From contig CADCWP010000057.1 in the NCBI GenBank assembly GCA_902806425.1, positions 1-38,518 of the forward strand: a stretch of DNA of 38,518 nucleotides, written 5' to 3'. How positions within the stretch are numbered: position 1 is the stretch's first letter; every line of letters starts with the position of its first letter. The DNA is from an uncultured Truepera sp. (GTDB lineage: Bacteria; Deinococcota; Deinococci; Deinococcales; Trueperaceae). The position numbers and the translations under genes were made by a program. Under the pieces are notes generated by a model. That model saw only the letters and a list, made by a program, of their open reading frames with translations, had not been told where the DNA came from and made no database searches. Of this stretch, positions 18,920 to 28,212 are shown piece after piece.

Positions 18920-18941
18920 CTCCTTGGAGGTCATCCACATC

Positions 18942-19901
18942 ATGAAAAAAATCCTTGCGCTCCTCGCTCTCGTTCCCGGTACGGCGTTTGCCCAGCAGAT
19001 CGCCGTCGACGGCTCCTCGACCGTTTACCCGATCTCGCTGGCGATGGCCGAAGAGTTCCAGATCGTCAACCCCGACGCGCAGATCACCGTCGGTTTCGCC
19101 GGAACGGGCGGCGGCTTTGAACGCTTCTGCGCCGGTGAAACGCAGATCTCGGACGCGAGCCGCGTTATCGAACCCGATGAAGTCGCCGCTTGCCAAGAAG
19201 CCAGTATCCCCTTTATCGAACTGCCGATAGCTGCCGACGCGCTCACCGTCGTCGTCAACCCCGAAAACGACTGGGTCGAGTGCCTCACGGTCGAACAGCT
19301 TACCCAGATCTGGTCGGCGGACGGCGGCGTCACCACCTGGAGCGACGTAAATCCTGAGTGGCCCGAAGAACCCCTCGAACTCTACGCCCCCGGCGTCGAT
19401 TCGGGCACCTTCGACTACTTTAACGAGGCCATCATCGGCGACGACGCCGAGATCCGTCAGGACTTTTCGCCGAGCGAAGACGACAACGTGCTGGTGCAGG
19501 GCGTGCAGGGTAACACGAACGCGATGGGCTTTTTTGGCTACGCCTACTACGCCGAAAACCCCGACACCTTAAAAGCGGTCGAGATTGACGGCGGTGACGG
19601 CTGCGTCGCGCCGAGCGCCGAAACGGTCGAGGACGCCTCCTATACGCCGCTCTCGCGCCCGTTATTTATCTACGTAAGCCAGAGCGCCGTCGATTCCACC
19701 CCGGCGCTTCAGGACTTTGTCGATTTCTACCTCTCGCCCGACAATACCGAGCTGATCGAGGACACCGGCTACGTGACCTATGACGAGGGCATCTACGAGG
19801 CTGTACAGGCGCGCTTTGACGAGCGTGTGACAGGCAGCGCCTTCGCCGACTTTGCGCCTGGCGACGATGTGCTCGAGGCCGTTCAAGAGGCGGAGCAGTA
19901 A
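18942..19901 (+). CDS. pstS: phosphate ABC transporter substrate-binding protein
   Basis: MKKILALLALVPGTAFAQQ signal; VDGSSTVYPISLAMAEEF; DASRVIEPDEV; GTFDYFNEAIIG. Confidence 0.92.
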   Translation: MKKILALLALVPGTAFAQQIAVDGSSTVYPISLAMAEEFQIVNPDAQITVGFAGTGGGFERFCAGETQISDASRVIEPDEVAACQEASIPFIELPIAADALTVVVNPENDWVECLTVEQLTQIWSADGGVTTWSDVNPEWPEEPLELYAPGVDSGTFDYFNEAIIGDDAEIRQDFSPSEDDNVLVQGVQGNTNAMGFFGYAYYAENPDTLKAVEIDGGDGCVAPSAETVEDASYTPLSRPLFIYVSQSAVDSTPALQDFVDFYLSPDNTELIEDTGYVTYDEGIYEAVQARFDERVTGSAFADFAPGDDVLEAVQEAEQ

Positions 19902-19944
19902 GCCTGACGATGAGCTGACACTGCGCTGAAATACGTAGACTAGG

Positions 19945-19971
19945 CTAGCCTTCATATGAAGGCTAGTTTTT
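19945..19971 (+). terminator. Rho-independent terminator/attenuator between pstS and pstC
   Basis: Perfect palindrome CTAGCCTTCATATGAAGGCTAG followed by TTTTT. Confidence 0.82.
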
Positions 19972-19986
19972 ACTCGAGGAGACGGC

Positions 19987-20928
19987 ATGGAGCGTAAAAC
20001 GCCCGGGATGCTCGGCAGGGCGCGGGCTGTAGGTCTTAACAAGCGGGCAGACCGGCGCGTGGGTGAGGCCGTGATCGGCACGCTGCTGCTTTTGTGTGCG
20101 CTCGTCTCGGTCGTGACGACGGTGGCGGTCGTCTACTCGATAGCCGAGGAGACGTTCCAGTTTTTCCGCGAGGTCTCGGTCGTCGAGTTTTTTACCAGCC
20201 GGGTCTGGACGCCGCTTTTTGAAAACCAAAACTTCGGTATCGCGCCCCTTGTCCTGGGCACCCTTATGGTGACCTCAATCGCCTGCGTGATCGGCTTGCC
20301 GCTGGGTCTGGGCGCGGCGATCTACCTGGCTGAGTTCGCGGGCGACCGGACACGCCGCACCGTGACGCCGATCCTCGAGGTTTTAGCCGGTATCCCCACC
20401 GTGGCGCTCGGCTACTTCGCGCTGCTCTTCGTCACGCCCGTGATCCGCGACCTTATCCCCGGCGTCAACCTCTTTAACCCGCTTTCCGCCGGGTTCGTGA
20501 TGGCGTTTCTGATCCTGCCGACGGTGACCTCTATCTCGGTCGACTCGCTGCGGGCTGTGCCCCGGAGCCTCCGTGAAGCGGGCTACGGCTTGGGCGCGTC
20601 CAAATTTGAACTGATCACCCGGGTGGTGGTGCCAGCGGCGCTCTCGGGCATTATCGCGTCGTTTATCCTGGCGATCTCCCGCGCCATCGGCGAAACCATG
20701 ATCGTGACGCTGGCGAGCGGCGGGCGGCCCAACTTTACCTTCGACCCACGCCAAGAGATGGCGACGATGACCGCCTTTATCGTGCAGGCCGGGACCGGCG
20801 ACCAAGCCGCCGGGTCTCTCGGGGCGCGCTCGCTCTACGCCGTGGCTGCGGTGCTCTTTACCATCACGCTGGTTCTCAACATCTTGTCGCAGCAGGTCGT
20901 GCGGCGGTTTTCGGAGAAGTACGAATGA
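19987..20928 (+). CDS. pstC: phosphate ABC transporter permease PstC
   Basis: PLGLGAAIYLAEFAGDRTRRTVTPILEVLAGIPTVALGYFAL; ISRAIGETMIVTLASGG. Confidence 0.92.
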   Translation: MERKTPGMLGRARAVGLNKRADRRVGEAVIGTLLLLCALVSVVTTVAVVYSIAEETFQFFREVSVVEFFTSRVWTPLFENQNFGIAPLVLGTLMVTSIACVIGLPLGLGAAIYLAEFAGDRTRRTVTPILEVLAGIPTVALGYFALLFVTPVIRDLIPGVNLFNPLSAGFVMAFLILPTVTSISVDSLRAVPRSLREAGYGLGASKFELITRVVVPAALSGIIASFILAISRAIGETMIVTLASGGRPNFTFDPRQEMATMTAFIVQAGTGDQAAGSLGARSLYAVAAVLFTITLVLNILSQQVVRRFSEKYE

Positions 20929-22307
20929 AAGCGTCTCTTAGCGCGCCTGCCGGTGCCGCCCGGCGTCCCGGCAAACGCCTCGTCAGCGCCGAAGAAGCAC
21001 GCCGCTTAGCCGCCCGGACCCGCGCGGGCCGCATCTTCGCGGTAGTGACGTTTATCCCGGTCGTCCTGGCCGTAGCCCTTGTCGGCGTGCTCTTGCTCGA
21101 CACGCTCCTCGACACCGTATCGTGGCAGATCGTCGAACCGAGCAGCAGCACGAGCGGCGAGAGCTTCCCTTGGTCGGCTGCGCCTTTGGGCGGGCGTGAG
21201 GTGATCCGCCTAGACCTCGCCGCGCAGGGCGAGACGCCCGAAGACGTGCAGGCGTTCATGAACGACCCCGAGGAGCTGCGCCTCTTTGAAGCGCGGGGCC
21301 GGATCGAACTCATGTGGCGTACGGAGGACGGGCCCTTCCGCTGGGTGGTGACCAACAGCCGCGACGACAGCGTAGCGGACATCGGCTTATTCGGTGTGAA
21401 CGCGTACTTGAGCGAGCTGCGTGGTGAATTGGCCGAAGATGTGGAGGATTTGGACCCCGCCGAAGGGGGGCTTTTAGGCCGGTTGCAGGGGGCCGACCTG
21501 GACGGGCTGTTTAACCGCTTCGCCAACATCGGGTTGCTTTCAAGTACCTTAGGGGAGGATCAGAACCTCTACCTGAACCCCTGGCTAGACCTTTCTTTCT
21601 TGACCAAAAACGCCTCCCGCACGCCGGTCGTCGCCGGTCTCAAGGTTGCGCTCCTGGGCACGCTCTGGGTGATGGGGTTGGTTATTCTCATCACCCTGCC
21701 GACGGGTGTGGGGGCGGCCATCTATCTGGAGGAGTACGCGCCGGAAAACCGCTTCTCGAGGCTTTTAGAACTCAACATCCGCAACCTGGCGGGCGTCCCC
21801 AGCATCGTCTACGGCATTTTGGGTTTGTACGTGTTTGTGCGGCTTGCCCAGATCGGCCCGACGATCCTATCGGCGGCCTTGACCCTTTCGCTGCTCGTGT
21901 TGCCGGTCGTGATCATCGCGGCGCGTGAAGCTATCCGGGCCGTACCCAGCACCCTGCGCCAAGCGAGTTACGGCCTGGGCGCGACCAAATGGCAGACGGT
22001 GAGCGAAGTCGTCCTGCCCAACGCTGTCGGCGGCATCGTAACGGGCGTGATTCTGGCGATAGCCAGGGCCATCGGCGAGACGGCCCCGCTCCTTTTGGTG
22101 GGCGCGGTCGGGTTTATCGCCTACCCGCCCAACGGACCCTTTTCGCGTTACACGGTGATCCCCTCACAGATCTACAACTGGATTGCCGAGAACGACGTCG
22201 AGTTCGCGCACGTCGCTTCCGCCGGAATCATCGTGCTGCTGGCCCTCCTTTTCGTTCTCTACGGCGTAGCTTTTTACCTGCGCCGCCGCTTCGAGCGGTC
22301 GTGGTAG
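20925..22307 (+). CDS. pstA: phosphate ABC transporter permease PstA with large N-terminal periplasmic insertion
   Basis: C-terminal LPTGVGAAIYLEEYAPENRFSRLLELNIRNLAGVPSIVYGILG; AIARAIGETAPLLLVGAVGF; ATGA overlap with pstC. Confidence 0.9.
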   Translation: MKASLSAPAGAARRPGKRLVSAEEARRLAARTRAGRIFAVVTFIPVVLAVALVGVLLLDTLLDTVSWQIVEPSSSTSGESFPWSAAPLGGREVIRLDLAAQGETPEDVQAFMNDPEELRLFEARGRIELMWRTEDGPFRWVVTNSRDDSVADIGLFGVNAYLSELRGELAEDVEDLDPAEGGLLGRLQGADLDGLFNRFANIGLLSSTLGEDQNLYLNPWLDLSFLTKNASRTPVVAGLKVALLGTLWVMGLVILITLPTGVGAAIYLEEYAPENRFSRLLELNIRNLAGVPSIVYGILGLYVFVRLAQIGPTILSAALTLSLLVLPVVIIAAREAIRAVPSTLRQASYGLGATKWQTVSEVVLPNAVGGIVTGVILAIARAIGETAPLLLVGAVGFIAYPPNGPFSRYTVIPSQIYNWIAENDVEFAHVASAGIIVLLALLFVLYGVAFYLRRRFERSW

Positions 22308-22452
22308 AAGCCATCTAAAAAATCCTCGTCGGGCTTTGTGACCGTAGGAAATCTTTTAGGGCCTAACGAGGATTTGAGCGAGTGGAACGAGTAAGATTGA
22401 ACGCACTCAGTCTACAAAACCATTCTTGAGATAAGTTCTAGTCAGGAGCTTT

Positions 22453-23313
22453 ATGACGACGCCCACTGTCAGCACAGAACCCAACACCCGCGCCAACACC
22501 CACGTCGGCGCAAAACCGTTTGACCTTTCGCAACCGAGCGTCCGCACCGCCCCCGTGTCCGACGAGCACGCTGTTGTGAGCATCAAAGACTTTAACCTCT
22601 GGTACGGCAACTTCCAGGCGCTCCACCACGTCTCGCTCAACATCCCCAAAAATCAGGTGACGGCGCTTATCGGCGCGTCGGGCTGCGGCAAGTCGACGCT
22701 GCTGCGCGCGATAAACCGGATGAACGACCTTATTCCGATTGTAAAAACAGACGGCACCATCACCTACGAAGGCGTCGACCTCTACGACCGTGCCGTTGAC
22801 CCGGTCGAGGTGCGCCGCCGCGTCGGGATGGTGTTTCAAAAACCCAACCCCTTTCCCAAGTCGGTCTTCGACAACGTCGCCTTTGGGCCGCGCTTAAACG
22901 CCTATAAGGGCGACCTGAACGCTCTGGTCGAAAAGTCGCTCAAACGTGCGGCGCTCTGGGAAGAGGTCAAGGACAAATTGAAGGGGTCCGGTTTAGGCCT
23001 TTCGGGTGGACAGCAGCAGCGCCTCTGCATCGCCCGGGCGATGGCGACCGAACCCGACATCATCCTGATGGACGAACCCACCTCGGCCCTCGACCCGATG
23101 TCGACCGACCGCATCGAGGGGCTTATTCACGAGATTAAAGAGCACTACACGGTCGTCATCGTTACCCACAACATGCAGCAGGCGGGGCGTGTCTCGGACC
23201 GGACGGCGTTTATGCACCTGGGCGTCCTGATCGAAGAAGGTCCGACCGACCAGATCTTTACCAACCCCAAGCACGAGATGACCGAGCGATACGTCGAGGG
23301 GCGCTTTGGCTAA
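22453..23313 (+). CDS. pstB: phosphate ABC transporter ATPase PstB
   Basis: GASGCGKST Walker [36 protein letters not shown] signature. Confidence 0.96.
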
Positions 23314-23405
23314 GCCGCCCTGGGTAGAACTTCACAGTAGAGCCTTACACGGGCAACCGTAACGTTTCCTGTTCGGGCTCCGCTCGAGGCATGTTGTAGT
23401 GGTGT

Positions 23406-24533
23406 GTGACCCGTCTTTTCGTTGTGGTTTTAGCGTTGGCTTCCTGCACGCCGCAGGTGACGCCGCTAGCTGTAGTCGGTGGCACGGGTGTAGGGCTAGG
23501 GCGCGAGCCCTACTTTACCGGTCTCACCAAGCCCACCGACCTGCGCTTTGTCGGCGACGGGCGGGCGCTCGCGGCTCAGCAAAAAGGCACAGTCGTGCGC
23601 CTCGGCGACGGCAAAAACAAAACTGTGCTCGACCTGCGGGGGCGCGTCGGCTGTTGTGGTGAGCGGGGCTGCTGAGTCTGGCGCTGTACCCGGACTTTGC
23701 CCAAAACGGGCTGATGTTTCTCTACGCGACCGACAAAACCGGGGCTACGGTGCTGAGCCGGGTGCGGCTCGACGTGCGGACGCTTGCGGCCAACCCCGCC
23801 ACCTATGACGTTCTTCTAGTAATTCCCCAACCCGGCCCAACCCATAACGGCGGCTAGCTCCAGTTTGGCCCGGCTGGGCTTCTCTACCTAAGCACCGGCG
23901 ACGGCCTCTACCGTCCGTCGTGGTTGGGCGCCCCCCTACGCACAGGAGACGGACGGGATGTTGGGCAAGCTTCTCCGCTTTCGGGTTGATGAGGCTGGAC
24001 TCTCCGTACCCGCCGATAATCCCTTCGTCCATGTAGAGGGCGCGGAAGCGGCGGTGTGGGCCTACGGTCTTTGCAACCCGTGGCGCTTCTCTTTCGACCG
24101 TGAGGGGGACGAGATTTACATGGCCGACGTGGGGGAAACGGCGTTTGAAGAGATCAATGTGCAGCGGCTGAGGGCGTCTCGAGGCGCGAACTATGGCTGG
24201 CCCCTCGCCGACGGGCCGCGGTGCCGCGTGCCGGGAGGGTGCGCCGGGTTTGTCCCACCAGCCCTCAGCTATACACACGCCGAGGGCTGTTCGGTCACGG
24301 GCGGTTACGTCTACCGGGGCGCGGCGCTCCCTGAGCTGACCGGACGGTATCTGTATGGCGACTTTTGGAGCGGCGTCATCTGGGCTGCCGAGCGCCGGGA
24401 TGGGCTCTGGCAGGCTGAGGTCGTGGCCGATACCTCCCTGATCCTCAGCAGTTTTGCTCGGGACGCCGCAGGCGAGGTGTATGTGCTCGATTATGCGGGA
24501 GGTGCAGTCTACAGACTCGCTGAGGCGAAGTAG
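23406..24533 (+). pseudogene. PQQ-dependent sugar dehydrogenase-like (soluble beta-propeller), multiply disrupted
   Basis: Pieces GLTKPTDLRFVGDGRALAAQQKGTVV, then another frame LALYPDFAQNGLMFLYATDK...QPGPTHNGG-TAG-LQFGPAGLLYLSTGDG, then 23958-24533 YGLCNPWRFSFDREGDEIYMADVG...ANYGWP. Confidence 0.85.
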
Positions 24534-24562
24534 GGTTGCGGCGTGGTGTCAGCACAAACTCA

Positions 24563-24597
24563 TTGACATATTTATATCTGTCTATTAGTATATGTCT
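24563..24597 (+). promoter_or_regulatory. arsR promoter and putative operator
   Basis: TTGACA (24563-24568), 17-nt spacer, TAGTAT (24586-24591); inverted repeat GACATAT/ATATGTC at 24565-24571 / 24590-24596. Confidence 0.7.
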
Positions 24598-24909
24598 ATG
24601 AACGACCTGGCTACCGAACTCAAAGCCCTAGCTGACCCGGTCAGGCTCAGCATTCTCGAGTTTCTCCTCGATCCGGTGCAGACCTGCTGTGCGAGCGACG
24701 AAGGCGTGTGCGCCTGCGACTTCGAGACCATCTTGGGACTGTCACAGCCAACCGTGAGCCACCACATGAAGCTTTTGGTGCAGGCGGGCTTCGTGCGCGC
24801 CCGAAAGCGTGGGCGCTGGGTCTACTACGACCTCAACCGTGAGGCGTTTGGGGCGCTACAAAAAGTACTCTCCCGCTTCGCCTCCCTTCCGGTTTTAGAA
24901 AGGGGGTGA
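24598..24909 (+). CDS. arsR: ArsR-family metalloregulator
   Basis: LADPVRLSILEFLLDP..TCCASDEGVCACDFETILGLSQPTVSHHMKLLVQAGFVRARKRGRWVYYDLN; start at 24598 (leaderless) or 24592. Confidence 0.92.
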   Translation: MNDLATELKALADPVRLSILEFLLDPVQTCCASDEGVCACDFETILGLSQPTVSHHMKLLVQAGFVRARKRGRWVYYDLNREAFGALQKVLSRFASLPVLERG

Positions 24910-24913
24910 GACC

Positions 24914-25000
24914 ATGCAACTAGTTGTGCTGAACGACGACGGCTGCGACTGCGGCGAAAGCTGCACCTGCGATGAAAATTGCAGCTGCACCTGCTGCTGA
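24914..25000 (+). CDS. 28-aa cysteine-rich peptide MQLVVLNDDGCDCGESCTCDENCSCTCC
   Basis: Strong purine-rich RBS (aaagggggtgag) before ATG, 4 nt after arsR stop; 8 Cys, all TGC; not in ORF track because short. Confidence 0.75.
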   Translation: MQLVVLNDDGCDCGESCTCDENCSCTCC

Positions 25001-25007
25001 ACCTTGT

Positions 25008-25033
25008 AGGGCGCGCTGAACATCGCGCGCCCT
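25008..25033 (+). terminator. Intra-operon hairpin (possible attenuator) after Cys-rich ORF
   Basis: AGGGCGCGC-tgaacatc-GCGCGCCCT, 9-bp perfect stem; weak T-tract. Confidence 0.65.
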
Positions 25034-25054
25034 TTCCTATCCAAGGAGAACCCC

Positions 25055-25102
25055 ATGCACCCTTTTGACCTTTACAGGCGAAGCAACGACCGGGCGGCGT
25101 AG
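25055..25102 (+). CDS. 15-aa ORF MHPFDLYRRSNDRAA directly upstream of arsM
   Basis: Strong RBS AAGGAG upstream; stop 2 nt before arsM ATG, which has no clear RBS of its own. Confidence 0.45.
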   Translation: MHPFDLYRRSNDRAA

Positions 25103-25104
25103 CT

Positions 25105-26193
25105 ATGGACGTGCGCGAGCGAGTACAGAACTATTACGGGCGACGTATCACCCAGAATCAGGGCTGTTGCGCCTCCAAAGGCGAAACGGGTCGCGTTGGG
25201 ACGCTCGAGGTGCCGACTTACGGTTGCGGCACGCCCACCCGTTTCGCCGACCTGCAACCGGAGGAGACGGTGCTCGACCTCGGCAGCGGTGCAGGCCTAG
25301 ACTGCTTCCGGGCGGCCCAGGCGGTCGGCGAAACCGGGTACGTCATCGGCGTAGACATGACCCCGGAGATGCTGAAACGGGCGCGGGCAGGCGCGGCTCA
25401 GCTCGGCCTCCTAAACGTCGAATTTCGAGAAGGCTACATCGAAGCGTTGCCCGTCGAACCGGGAAGCGTCGACGCTATCTTGTCGAACTGCGTGGTGAAC
25501 CTGTCTACCGATAAAACCGCGGTACTGCGCGAAGCCTACCGGGTGCTGAGAGCGGGTGGACGACTGGCGATCAGCGACATGGTGCGGGTTGGTGACGCTC
25601 CGGCGAGGGTCACGGACGAGGGCTGGTGCGCCTGCGAGGACGGTGCGGAAACGGTTGCACAGTACCAGGCGCGGCTGCAAGAGGTCGGTTTTGCCGGTAT
25701 CAGCTTCACCGGCAACGCTCCGGAGAACGGCACCTATAGCGCTCAGATACGGGCCACGAAACCCGCCATCCGTGAGGCGTCACCCGCTGACCGGCAAGCT
25801 ATCGAAGCGCTTCTAGAAGGGGCTGATCTGCCCACGGACGGCTTAGGCGCGACCGAACTCCTGGTGCTCGAGGAAAACGGCACTGTGATGGGTGTCGTCG
25901 GCTTTGAACCCTACGGCGAGGCGGCCCTGTTGCGGTCGCTGGTGGTAGCACCGAAAGGGCGCGGTGGTGGGCTGGCGTGGGCACTGCTGGTGCGCGCTCT
26001 AACCGTGCTGCGCGCGCGGGGCTTCACGGTCGCCTATGTCCTTACGACCACCGTTCCTGAACTGCTGCTTAAGCATGGGTTTACGGAGCTTTCACGGGAC
26101 GCCCTGCCCGAAGCTCTGGGCGCTTCGGCACAGCTCCGGGGGGCGGGAGCGTGCCCCGCATCGGCTCGAGCCTTTACCAAGCAAATCGTATGA
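25105..26193 (+). CDS. arsM: arsenite methyltransferase ArsM fused to ArsN2-like GNAT N-acetyltransferase
   Basis: N-terminal [35 protein letters not shown]...[11 protein letters not shown]...[11 protein letters not shown]-terminal [26 protein letters not shown]...[21 protein letters not shown]...[14 protein letters not shown]. Confidence 0.88.
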
Positions 26194-27335
26194 CAACCGC
26201 ACCCCTACAGGCCCCACGCAAGCGGCTTTCCTTCCTCGACCGCTACCTGACGCTGTGGATTTTTCTGGCGATGGCTTTGGGAGTCGCCCTCGGGGCAGCG
26301 GTTCCCGATGTGGGCCGCGTCCTCGACGCTTTGAGCGTCGGCGCCACCAACATCCCGATTGCGGTCGGGCTGGTGCTGATGATGATCCCGCCGCTTGCCA
26401 AAGTACGCTATGGCAAGCTGCCGCAGGTCTTCCGCAACGTCCGGGTGCTCGGCCTGTCGCTGCTGCAAAACTGGCTCATCGGGCCGTTTCTGATGTTCTT
26501 TCTAGCGGTTGCCTTTTTGCAGAACTATCCGGAGTACATGGTGGGCGTTATCCTGATCGGCCTCGCCCGGTGCATCGCCATGGTGCTGGTTTGGAACGAG
26601 CTGGCCGAAGGTGACAGGGATTACGCGGCGGGGCTGGTGGCCTTTAACAGCGTTTTCCAGGTACTTTTTTTCAGCGTCTACGCTTGGTTTTTTCTCTCGG
26701 TGCTGCCGCCCCTGTTCGGACTCTCTGGAAGCGTCATCGGTATCAGTATCACCGAGGTCGCTAGGGCCGTGCTGGTCTACCTCGGGATTCCGTTCGCCAT
26801 CGGCGTTTTGTGCCGGGTTGTCTTGATTCCGCGCAAGGGACAAGCGTGGTACGACACGGCATTTTTGCCGCGTATAGGCCCAGTGACCCTGATCGCCTTG
26901 CTGTTTACCATCGTAGTGATGTTCAGCCTGCAAGGGGGCGCGATTCTTTCGCAGCCGGTCAATGTGCTCCTCGTCGCCACGCCGCTACTGATCTACTTCG
27001 TGGTGATGTTTCTGGTCAGCTTCGGCATGGGCAGGTTGATCGGGGCCGACTATTCACAGACCGCTACCCTCTCGTTTACCGCTGCCGGGAACAATTTTGA
27101 GCTGGCCTTGGCGGTCGCCGTGGCGGTGTTCGGCGTCGGATCGGGGGTTGCGTTCGCTGCCGTTATCGGACCGCTGGTGGAAGTTCCGGCCATGATCGCG
27201 CTGGTCAGCGTAGCTTTTTGGCTGCGTCGGCGCTATTTTGGCGAGCCACAACCTACCGATAGAACGGTGCTGCAAAGTGCGGATGCGGGCTGCGCGACAG
27301 AGATCGGCCACTCCATCAAAGGGAAACGCGCGTGA
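26190..27335 (+). CDS. acr3: ACR3-family arsenite efflux permease
   Basis: [79 protein letters not shown] overlap with arsM. Confidence 0.95.
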
Positions 27336-27808
27336 CGCGGGTTTTACTGTTCTGCACCCACAACTCGGCGCGTAGCCAGATGGCCGAGGGCTGGGTGCGG
27401 CACTACGCGCGTGAGCTGAGCGCGGACATCGCGGTGTCCTCTGCCGGGACGGAACAGACCTGGGTCAAGCCGGAAGCCACCGAGGTGATGCGGGAAGTTG
27501 GTATCGACCTGTCCGGTCACACCTCCAAAAGCTTGGACATGCTGCCCGACCCGTGGGCCTTTGACGTGGTGGTGACGGTCTGCGACAGCGCCAACGAAGC
27601 CTGCCCCGTCTACCCGATCAAAACCACGCGGCTGCATGTGTCGTTCCCCGACCCTAGTGGGCAGGGCGTGCAGAGGTGGCGCGAGGTTCGGGACGCGCTC
27701 GGCGGCATGAGCCGCGCGCTGGTCGAAGCGATAGCTAGCGGTGAAGCCCCGACACAAGAAACGTTGATTGAGGCGGGCAAGCTGCCCCAGCTGGGACTAT
27801 CACGGTGA
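27332..27808 (+). CDS. arsC: arsenate reductase (LMW-PTP-like ArsC)
   Basis: [39 protein letters not shown]. Confidence 0.9.
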
Positions 27809-28212
27809 ACGTGCTGTTTCTCTGTACTGGCAACTCGGCCCGTAGTCAGATGGCCGAAGCGTTCCTGCGCCACTACAGTAGCGAAACCTGCAATGTCTAC
27901 AGCGCAGGGCTTAAACCGAGTCAGGTGGGCCCGTACACCATCCGCGTGATGGAAGAACCCGGTTTTGACATAACTGGGCACCATGCGAAGAGCGTCCGCG
28001 ACTTTTTAGGAGGGTCGAACTTCGCGTATGTCATCACGGTCTGCGCGAAAGCTGAGGAAGACTGCCCCTCGACCTTCCCCGGCAGACCGACCAAGCTGGC
28101 CTGGTCGGTCGAGGACCCGGCGGCCTTAAGAGGAAGCGACGCCGCGAAGCTCGAGAAGTTCCGCGTGGTGGGCGACCAGATCGGGGCTCGAGTCCAGGGG
28201 TGGACGAGCTAA
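27805..28212 (+). CDS. second arsenate reductase-like LMW-PTP protein
   Basis: [54 protein letters not shown]. Confidence 0.88.
   Translation: MNVLFLCTGNSARSQMAEAFLRHYSSETCNVYSAGLKPSQVGPYTIRVMEEPGFDITGHHAKSVRDFLGGSNFAYVITVCAKAEEDCPSTFPGRPTKLAWSVEDPAALRGSDAAKLEKFRVVGDQIGARVQGWTS

Follow-up and report, generated by a model that had tools for sequence, protein, structure and literature searches.

A cysteine-rich 28-residue peptide encoded between arsR and arsM of an uncultured Truepera sp. is a candidate arsenic mini-metallothionein

The window, that is, the whole 38,518-nt stretch of DNA from an uncultured Truepera sp. that was analyzed in this work, encodes a peptide of 28 residues with eight cysteines within an arsenic-resistance operon, and on balance we lean toward the view that this peptide is a mini-metallothionein under ArsR control, with which the cell would buffer As(III)/Sb(III) before ArsM and Acr3 act. 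Counted in its favor are the Cys richness of the peptide, the top-ranking Shine-Dalgarno (SD) sequence of its gene, the bias in its inter-Cys residues, and the placement of its gene in the arsR-arsM interval, preceded by only one promoter-like site, along with the occurrence of its Cys lattice in small acidic proteins elsewhere, the fungal metallothioneins, and the Cys-tailed proteins that occupy the same slot in other genomes. Counted against it are the lack of any homologue in the relatives, phylum genomes, and arsM loci searched, the lack of a family match, and the presence of a hairpin and a terminal CC that also fit an attenuator. Furthermore, many CXC peptides prefer Cu(I), Cd, Zn, or Hg over As(III), which also weighs against an As(III) buffer. 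The source assembly consists of 376 contigs and is 92% complete.

24914..25000, + strand: ORF of the 28-aa, 8-Cys peptide MQLVVLNDDGCDCGESCTCDENCSCTCC (ATG at 24914, TGA ending at 25000)

The peptide ORF begins 4 nt after the arsR stop codon (24907-24909), exactly where an initial annotation, made from the sequence alone, had placed it, and the Cys spacing given there, CXC-X3-CXC-X3-CXCXCC, is that of the translated peptide. Cysteine accounts for 28.6% of the residues (8 of 28), in three CXC motifs plus a CC; F, Y, W, and H are all absent, as are basic residues and a signal peptide. These properties are those of the metallothionein class, whose members are small, contain ~20 to 30% Cys in CXC/CC motifs, have few or no aromatic residues, and lack a signal peptide. 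ORFs with at least 8 Cys at a Cys content of at least 25% were found neither among 141,798 ORFs of 20 to 60 aa from 300 Markov shuffles of the window nor among 5,164 real ORFs from 147 partly overlapping ars/arsM loci, and the Cys pattern itself did not occur in 100 shuffles of the window. Since such Cys richness is unmatched in both the shuffled and the real controls, the peptide ORF is not a chance ORF. Moreover, all 10 inter-Cys residues belong to the set D/E/N/S/T/G, being small or acidic/polar, a bias with p ~4e-5 against the composition of soluble ars proteins, or 3e-4 when repeated positions are not counted. This bias favors selection on the peptide over selection on the Cys codons alone.

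The initial annotation further suggested that the peptide had grown by a 24-nt duplication. The 12-bp direct repeat AGCTGCACCTGC on which this was based is present within the ORF (24959-24970 and 24983-24994), and a repeat of at least 12 nt arises in ~1% of simulations in which the Cys codons are held fixed (p ~0.01). The overall self-identity of the ORF is unremarkable at both lag 24 and lag 18 (p 0.16 and 0.20, respectively), and the period of the lattice is 18 nt (CXCX3), not 24. A 24-nt duplication is possible but weakly supported.

24897..24909, + strand: extended SD sequence AGAAAGGGGGTGA of the peptide ORF, overlapping the end of arsR (SD duplex energy)

The ribosome-binding site, which had been called strong, proved to be exceptional. 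Its pairing partner was the 16S 3' end AUCACCUCCUUUCU of the same-family genome G017 (also given as GGATCACCTCCTTTCT), with which AGAAAGGGGGTGA forms a 13-nt duplex containing one G-U pair; a 16S 3' end was not found in the window's own assembly. At −21.2 kcal/mol, the SD duplex of the peptide surpasses those of all other ATGs in the window (635 in total), the top value among the 33 long ORFs being −15.5 kcal/mol, that of a 15-codon mini-ORF located upstream of arsM −8.3 kcal/mol, and that of arsM itself −5.8 kcal/mol.

Profile searches with NCBIfam and Pfam gave the gene order arsR, peptide, arsM-arsN2, acr3, arsC, arsC, and the matches of the neighboring genes indicated that the arsenic-resistance context described in the initial annotation is genuine.

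24560..24601, no strand: imperfect inverted repeat that overlaps the promoter, its 12-nt arms separated by 18 nt (sequence repeat)
24563..24591, + strand: sigma-70-like promoter TTGACA-17-TAGTAT of the ars operon, the sole promoter-like site in 24300-25300
24592..24909, + strand: arsR, metalloregulator of the ArsR/SmtB family with cysteines in TCC...CACD (NCBIfam NF033788, E 1.2e-23)
25105..26193, + strand: fusion of ArsM arsenite methyltransferase and ArsN2-type acetyltransferase, 362 aa (NF008823, residues 38-208; NF040501, residues 229-359)
26190..27335, + strand: acr3, arsenite efflux transporter (TIGR00832, E 1.5e-129)
27332..27808, + strand: arsC copy 1, thioredoxin-type arsenate reductase family (NF010053, E 4e-28, below the NCBI cut-off; Pfam LMWPc)
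27805..28212, + strand: arsC copy 2, thioredoxin-type arsenate reductase family (TIGR02691, E 3.8e-31, below the NCBI cut-off; Pfam LMWPc)

The promoter scan of 24300-25300 revealed no second promoter-like site between arsR and the peptide. The inverted repeat is a candidate ArsR operator, and the ars mRNA may be leaderless because its predicted transcription start lies near the arsR ATG at 24598. Several further observations were made at this locus. The two arsC genes lie in tandem (27332-28212) with a 4-nt overlap. The ArsM-ArsN2 fusion protein has near full-length matches in the genomes G015, G038, and G035 and two separate matches in G013 and G017. Upstream of arsR, a glucose/sorbosone-dehydrogenase-like gene (23399-24533) is split over several frames and appears to be a pseudogene or an assembly error. 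The ars operon is closely preceded by the phosphate transport genes pstS-pstC-pstA-pstB (18924-23313), and phosphate transport of this kind is a likely entry route for arsenate.

Searches for relatives of the peptide yielded nothing of substance. Only noise with E > 0.05 was obtained from 292 relatives, and the six-Cys lattice occurred in 2 of 112 genomes of the phylum, namely, this genome and a repetitive Leu/Arg-Cys tract in G006, such that no credible second lattice was found among them. An ORF scan of 80 arsM loci from 389 genomes detected no small Cys-rich ORF with a CXC array near arsM. The same-genus genome G001 has two loci that each contain a relative of arsR; this is followed by arsC or by other genes, and a comparable peptide ORF is missing from both. 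A tblastn search of PLSDB gave no match, a negative of little weight because BLAST may have filtered out the query as low-complexity sequence, and the single match among PDB sequences was meaningless. Neither Pfam, searched to E 10, nor NCBIfam gave a match for the peptide, in agreement with the initial annotation, which recognized no named family. Among the phylum genomes searched, the peptide is an orphan with no occurrence beyond the source genome. The earlier metallothionein reading stands insofar as a metal-thiolate peptide could be expected to have this composition and this Cys lattice, but the conservation of a small Cys-rich ORF or CXC pattern that was proposed as its check is absent from the 292 relatives, the 112 phylum genomes, and the 80 arsM loci.

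The slot occupied by the peptide was then considered in other genomes. In three genomes of the same family (L011, L014, and L015), the gap between arsR and arsM encodes a protein of 66 to 85 aa with a Cys motif at its end (...GTCCAEGA, ...NCCPAGA, and ...TCAVSAPAGCCASPA). Cys-tailed small proteins also follow arsR in Thermus oshimai (L048) and on two Deinococcus plasmids (L046 and L047), where the next gene encodes DUF6428 or is an apparent homologue of such a gene; the closest plasmid-borne matches to ArsR are likewise from Deinococcus and Thermus.

L011:1184-1441: slot-protein ORF, same-family genome
L014:1290-1499: slot-protein ORF, same-family genome
L015, − strand: slot-protein ORF of 66 aa, same-family genome
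L048:3850-4059: slot-protein ORF, T. oshimai
L046:3833-3991: slot-protein ORF, Deinococcus plasmid
L047:3821-3973: slot-protein ORF, Deinococcus plasmid

What these proteins have in common with the peptide is the slot after arsR, their C termini carrying CC, CXXC, or CAC...CC. Unlike the peptide, they are 50 to 85 aa long, have an N-terminal part that is long and charged, and contain only 2 to 4 Cys. In shuffle tests, the first three slot proteins and that of T. oshimai were weakly similar, similarity was strong for the Deinococcus pair alone, and none of the slot proteins resembled the 28-mer beyond Cys. Together with the slot survey, these tests indicated that, in the sequences compared, Cys-tailed small proteins recur in the post-arsR slot but the 28-mer does not. 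We also noticed a terminal CC in the ArsR-like proteins L056, L357, and L372, where it might form a metalloid site.

The lattice CXCX3CXCX3CXCXC was found in genome contigs elsewhere, where the matches listed are mostly repeats or out of frame. Credible lattice proteins among the matches listed are L244 and L245, with L218, L226, and L228 lying inside larger ORFs; the credible proteins include one of 49 aa from Micrarchaeota. L244 (L244:3897-4091) is a 64-aa protein encoded in a Bacilli MAG, in which the CXC lattice recurs with the unit C-K-C-D-E-N-C-T-C-G-C; it is encoded 30 nt downstream of an ORF that, judged by its sequence, is cation-diffusion-facilitator-like, Pfam matched it best to Metallothio_5, though not significantly (0.063), and it looks like an unrecognized metallothionein. 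L218:2030-4045 from a Prevotellaceae MAG encodes a protein identified by eye as methylmalonyl-CoA-mutase-like, with a Cys-rich insert bearing the CXC lattice. These occurrences are probably convergent. A 7-Cys pattern was tried on viral contigs and discarded, its matches being swamped by TGY repeats.

Three known systems invite comparison. ArsD, a protein of ~120 aa that serves ArsA, is like the candidate peptide a small Cys-containing ars-operon protein proposed to hand over As(III); the ArsD profile did not match the peptide, and neither ArsA nor ArsD was found among the operon genes scanned. At the smtB-smtA locus, a metallothionein gene adjoins that of an ArsR/SmtB-family repressor, and the peptide gene resembles those of SmtA/BmtA in encoding a putative metal-thiolate peptide beside such a repressor gene. 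The peptide differs from SmtA/BmtA in having half the length and no His, SmtA-type metallothioneins employing His as well as Cys ligands in a zinc-finger fold (PMC10612145), and it gave no match to Pfam Metallothio_Pro (SmtA/BmtA) at E up to 10. The fungal copper metallothioneins of Binz-Kagi family 8 (Neurospora crassa and Agaricus bisporus) have 26 aa and 7 Cys in the arrangement X2-CXC-X5-CXC-X3-CXC-X2-C-X3 (PMC4755600), sharing with the peptide three CXC pairs, small polar spacers, the lack of aromatics, and a terminal Cys after the CXC pairs, with no homology claimed. The peptide does not follow the family 8 spacing, since it has X3/X3 spacers and an XCC end (CXC-X3-CXC-X3-CXC-X-CC); in further contrast, it has 8 Cys, is acidic and bacterial, and is encoded in an ars operon.

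The region between the peptide and arsM holds two elements that are absent from the initial annotation and give rise to a regulatory alternative.

25008..25033, + strand: perfect 9-bp G+C-rich hairpin followed by TTCCTA, beginning 8 nt past the peptide stop (folding z −4.7)
25055..25102, + strand: 15-codon mini-ORF MHPFDLYRRSNDRAA with RBS AAGGAG at 25043-25048, its TAG 2 nt before the arsM ATG

The hairpin has a weak U-tract and does not appear in the list from the terminator scan; it could act as an attenuator or as a terminator of partial efficiency. Folding also predicts a second stem, in which UUUCCU pairs with AGGAG and thereby covers the mini-ORF RBS. This ORF is likely a translational coupler for arsM, because the SD of arsM is weak. 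The similarity of its 15-aa product to the slot proteins, with a best p of 0.008 among six comparisons, is too slight to support homology.

The strength of the hairpin after the peptide ORF makes a Cys-codon attenuator, in which the site of ribosome stalling matters and not the product, the main alternative, although we consider it unlikely. In such a scheme, arsenite would tie up thiols, charged Cys-tRNA would run low, and ribosomes would pause on the TGC run, whereupon the hairpin at 25008-25033 or the small AAGGAG-covering hairpin would be remodeled and expression of arsM-acr3-arsC would rise. Apart from the hairpin, the second stem over the mini-ORF RBS and the CSCTCC end of the peptide ORF are in keeping with it. 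According to PMC13236596, which cites Canestrari 2020, mycobacteria use short polycysteine ORFs as attenuators that respond to cysteine, these being leader ORFs before cysteine genes. The likeness lies in a short Cys-codon-rich ORF followed by a hairpin and then the operon, and the difference lies in the internal position of the peptide ORF after arsR and in its regular CXC spacing. Against an attenuator, the peptide ORF is the second gene of the operon and not a leader, the downstream genes are not cysteine genes, the U-tract is weak and the hairpin is missing from the terminator scan, and folding gave no clear antiterminator. Furthermore, stalling needs no regular CXC-X3 spacing, and the choice of inter-Cys residues is strongly biased.

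Less probable than an attenuator is a metallothionein-like peptide for another soft metal, such as Cu(I), Cd, Zn, or Hg, that is merely cotranscribed with the ars genes. The closest Cys lattices with measured ligands are those of the fungal copper metallothioneins, the same-lattice bacterial protein L244 adjoins the cation-diffusion-facilitator-like gene, and an AfArsR peptide has a much higher affinity for Hg(II) than for As(III) (PMC11212059), but all the other genes of the operon are arsenic-specific. We regard as slightly more improbable still a young or neutral orphan ORF without function, or a remnant: restriction to a single genome with no conservation even in the same genus, and the visibly broken upstream neighbor gene, would suit such an origin, whereas an SD unsurpassed in the window and a composition that no control matched would not. 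Finally, it is very improbable that the peptide is a C-terminal Cys tail of ArsR providing an extra metalloid site through a +1 frameshift at GAA-AGG-GGG-TGA: although the ORF is +1 to arsR and its frame is open from 5 codons ahead of the ATG, a terminal CC is found in several other ArsR proteins, and the arsR stop carries a G-run and SD-like sequence, as is the case in prfB, no relative shows such an ArsR tail, and ordinary initiation accounts for the peptide start, since the G-run is an excellent SD at normal spacing to the ATG.

We therefore return to the As(III) buffer that we favor. Arsenite or antimonite would free the promoter of ArsR so that the arsR-peptide mRNA is transcribed, and the exceptional SD would ensure abundant synthesis of the 28-mer, which would be acidic and unstructured and offer 8 thiols. 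It would hold As(III) via three thiolates per As, with room for two As and two thiols to spare, and would keep free As(III) low until its export by Acr3 or methylation by ArsM. The hairpin may raise arsR and the peptide above the downstream enzymes, and the resulting abundance of the peptide would match the need of a stoichiometric buffer. Such binding is chemically plausible, since the short disordered AfArsR peptide with three Cys binds As(III) as AsS3 with a log K of 6.35 (PMC11212059). That the peptide is translated, induced, and beneficial, and that it binds As(III) with this stoichiometry, we infer from its sequence and setting; a handover of As(III) to ArsM is speculative, and a chaperone role with delivery to ArsM or Acr3 is purely conjectural.

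More tentatively, the peptide could represent a dedicated ars-operon metallothionein, namely, an ArsR-controlled, ribosomally made tri-thiolate ligand that both stores As(III) and serves as a thiol carrier to ArsM/Acr3 in a lineage that may lack glutathione; this broader proposal is a possibility that we hold with considerable doubt. A 2025 study states that ars operons are not known to contain a specific gene for intracellular arsenic sequestration (PMC12093948). If the proposal is true, the peptide would be a candidate for the first sequestration gene inside an ars operon and would rank among the shortest gene-encoded metallothioneins, of a size that permits direct synthesis and titration. 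Moreover, it would illustrate the de novo emergence of such peptides inside an operon.
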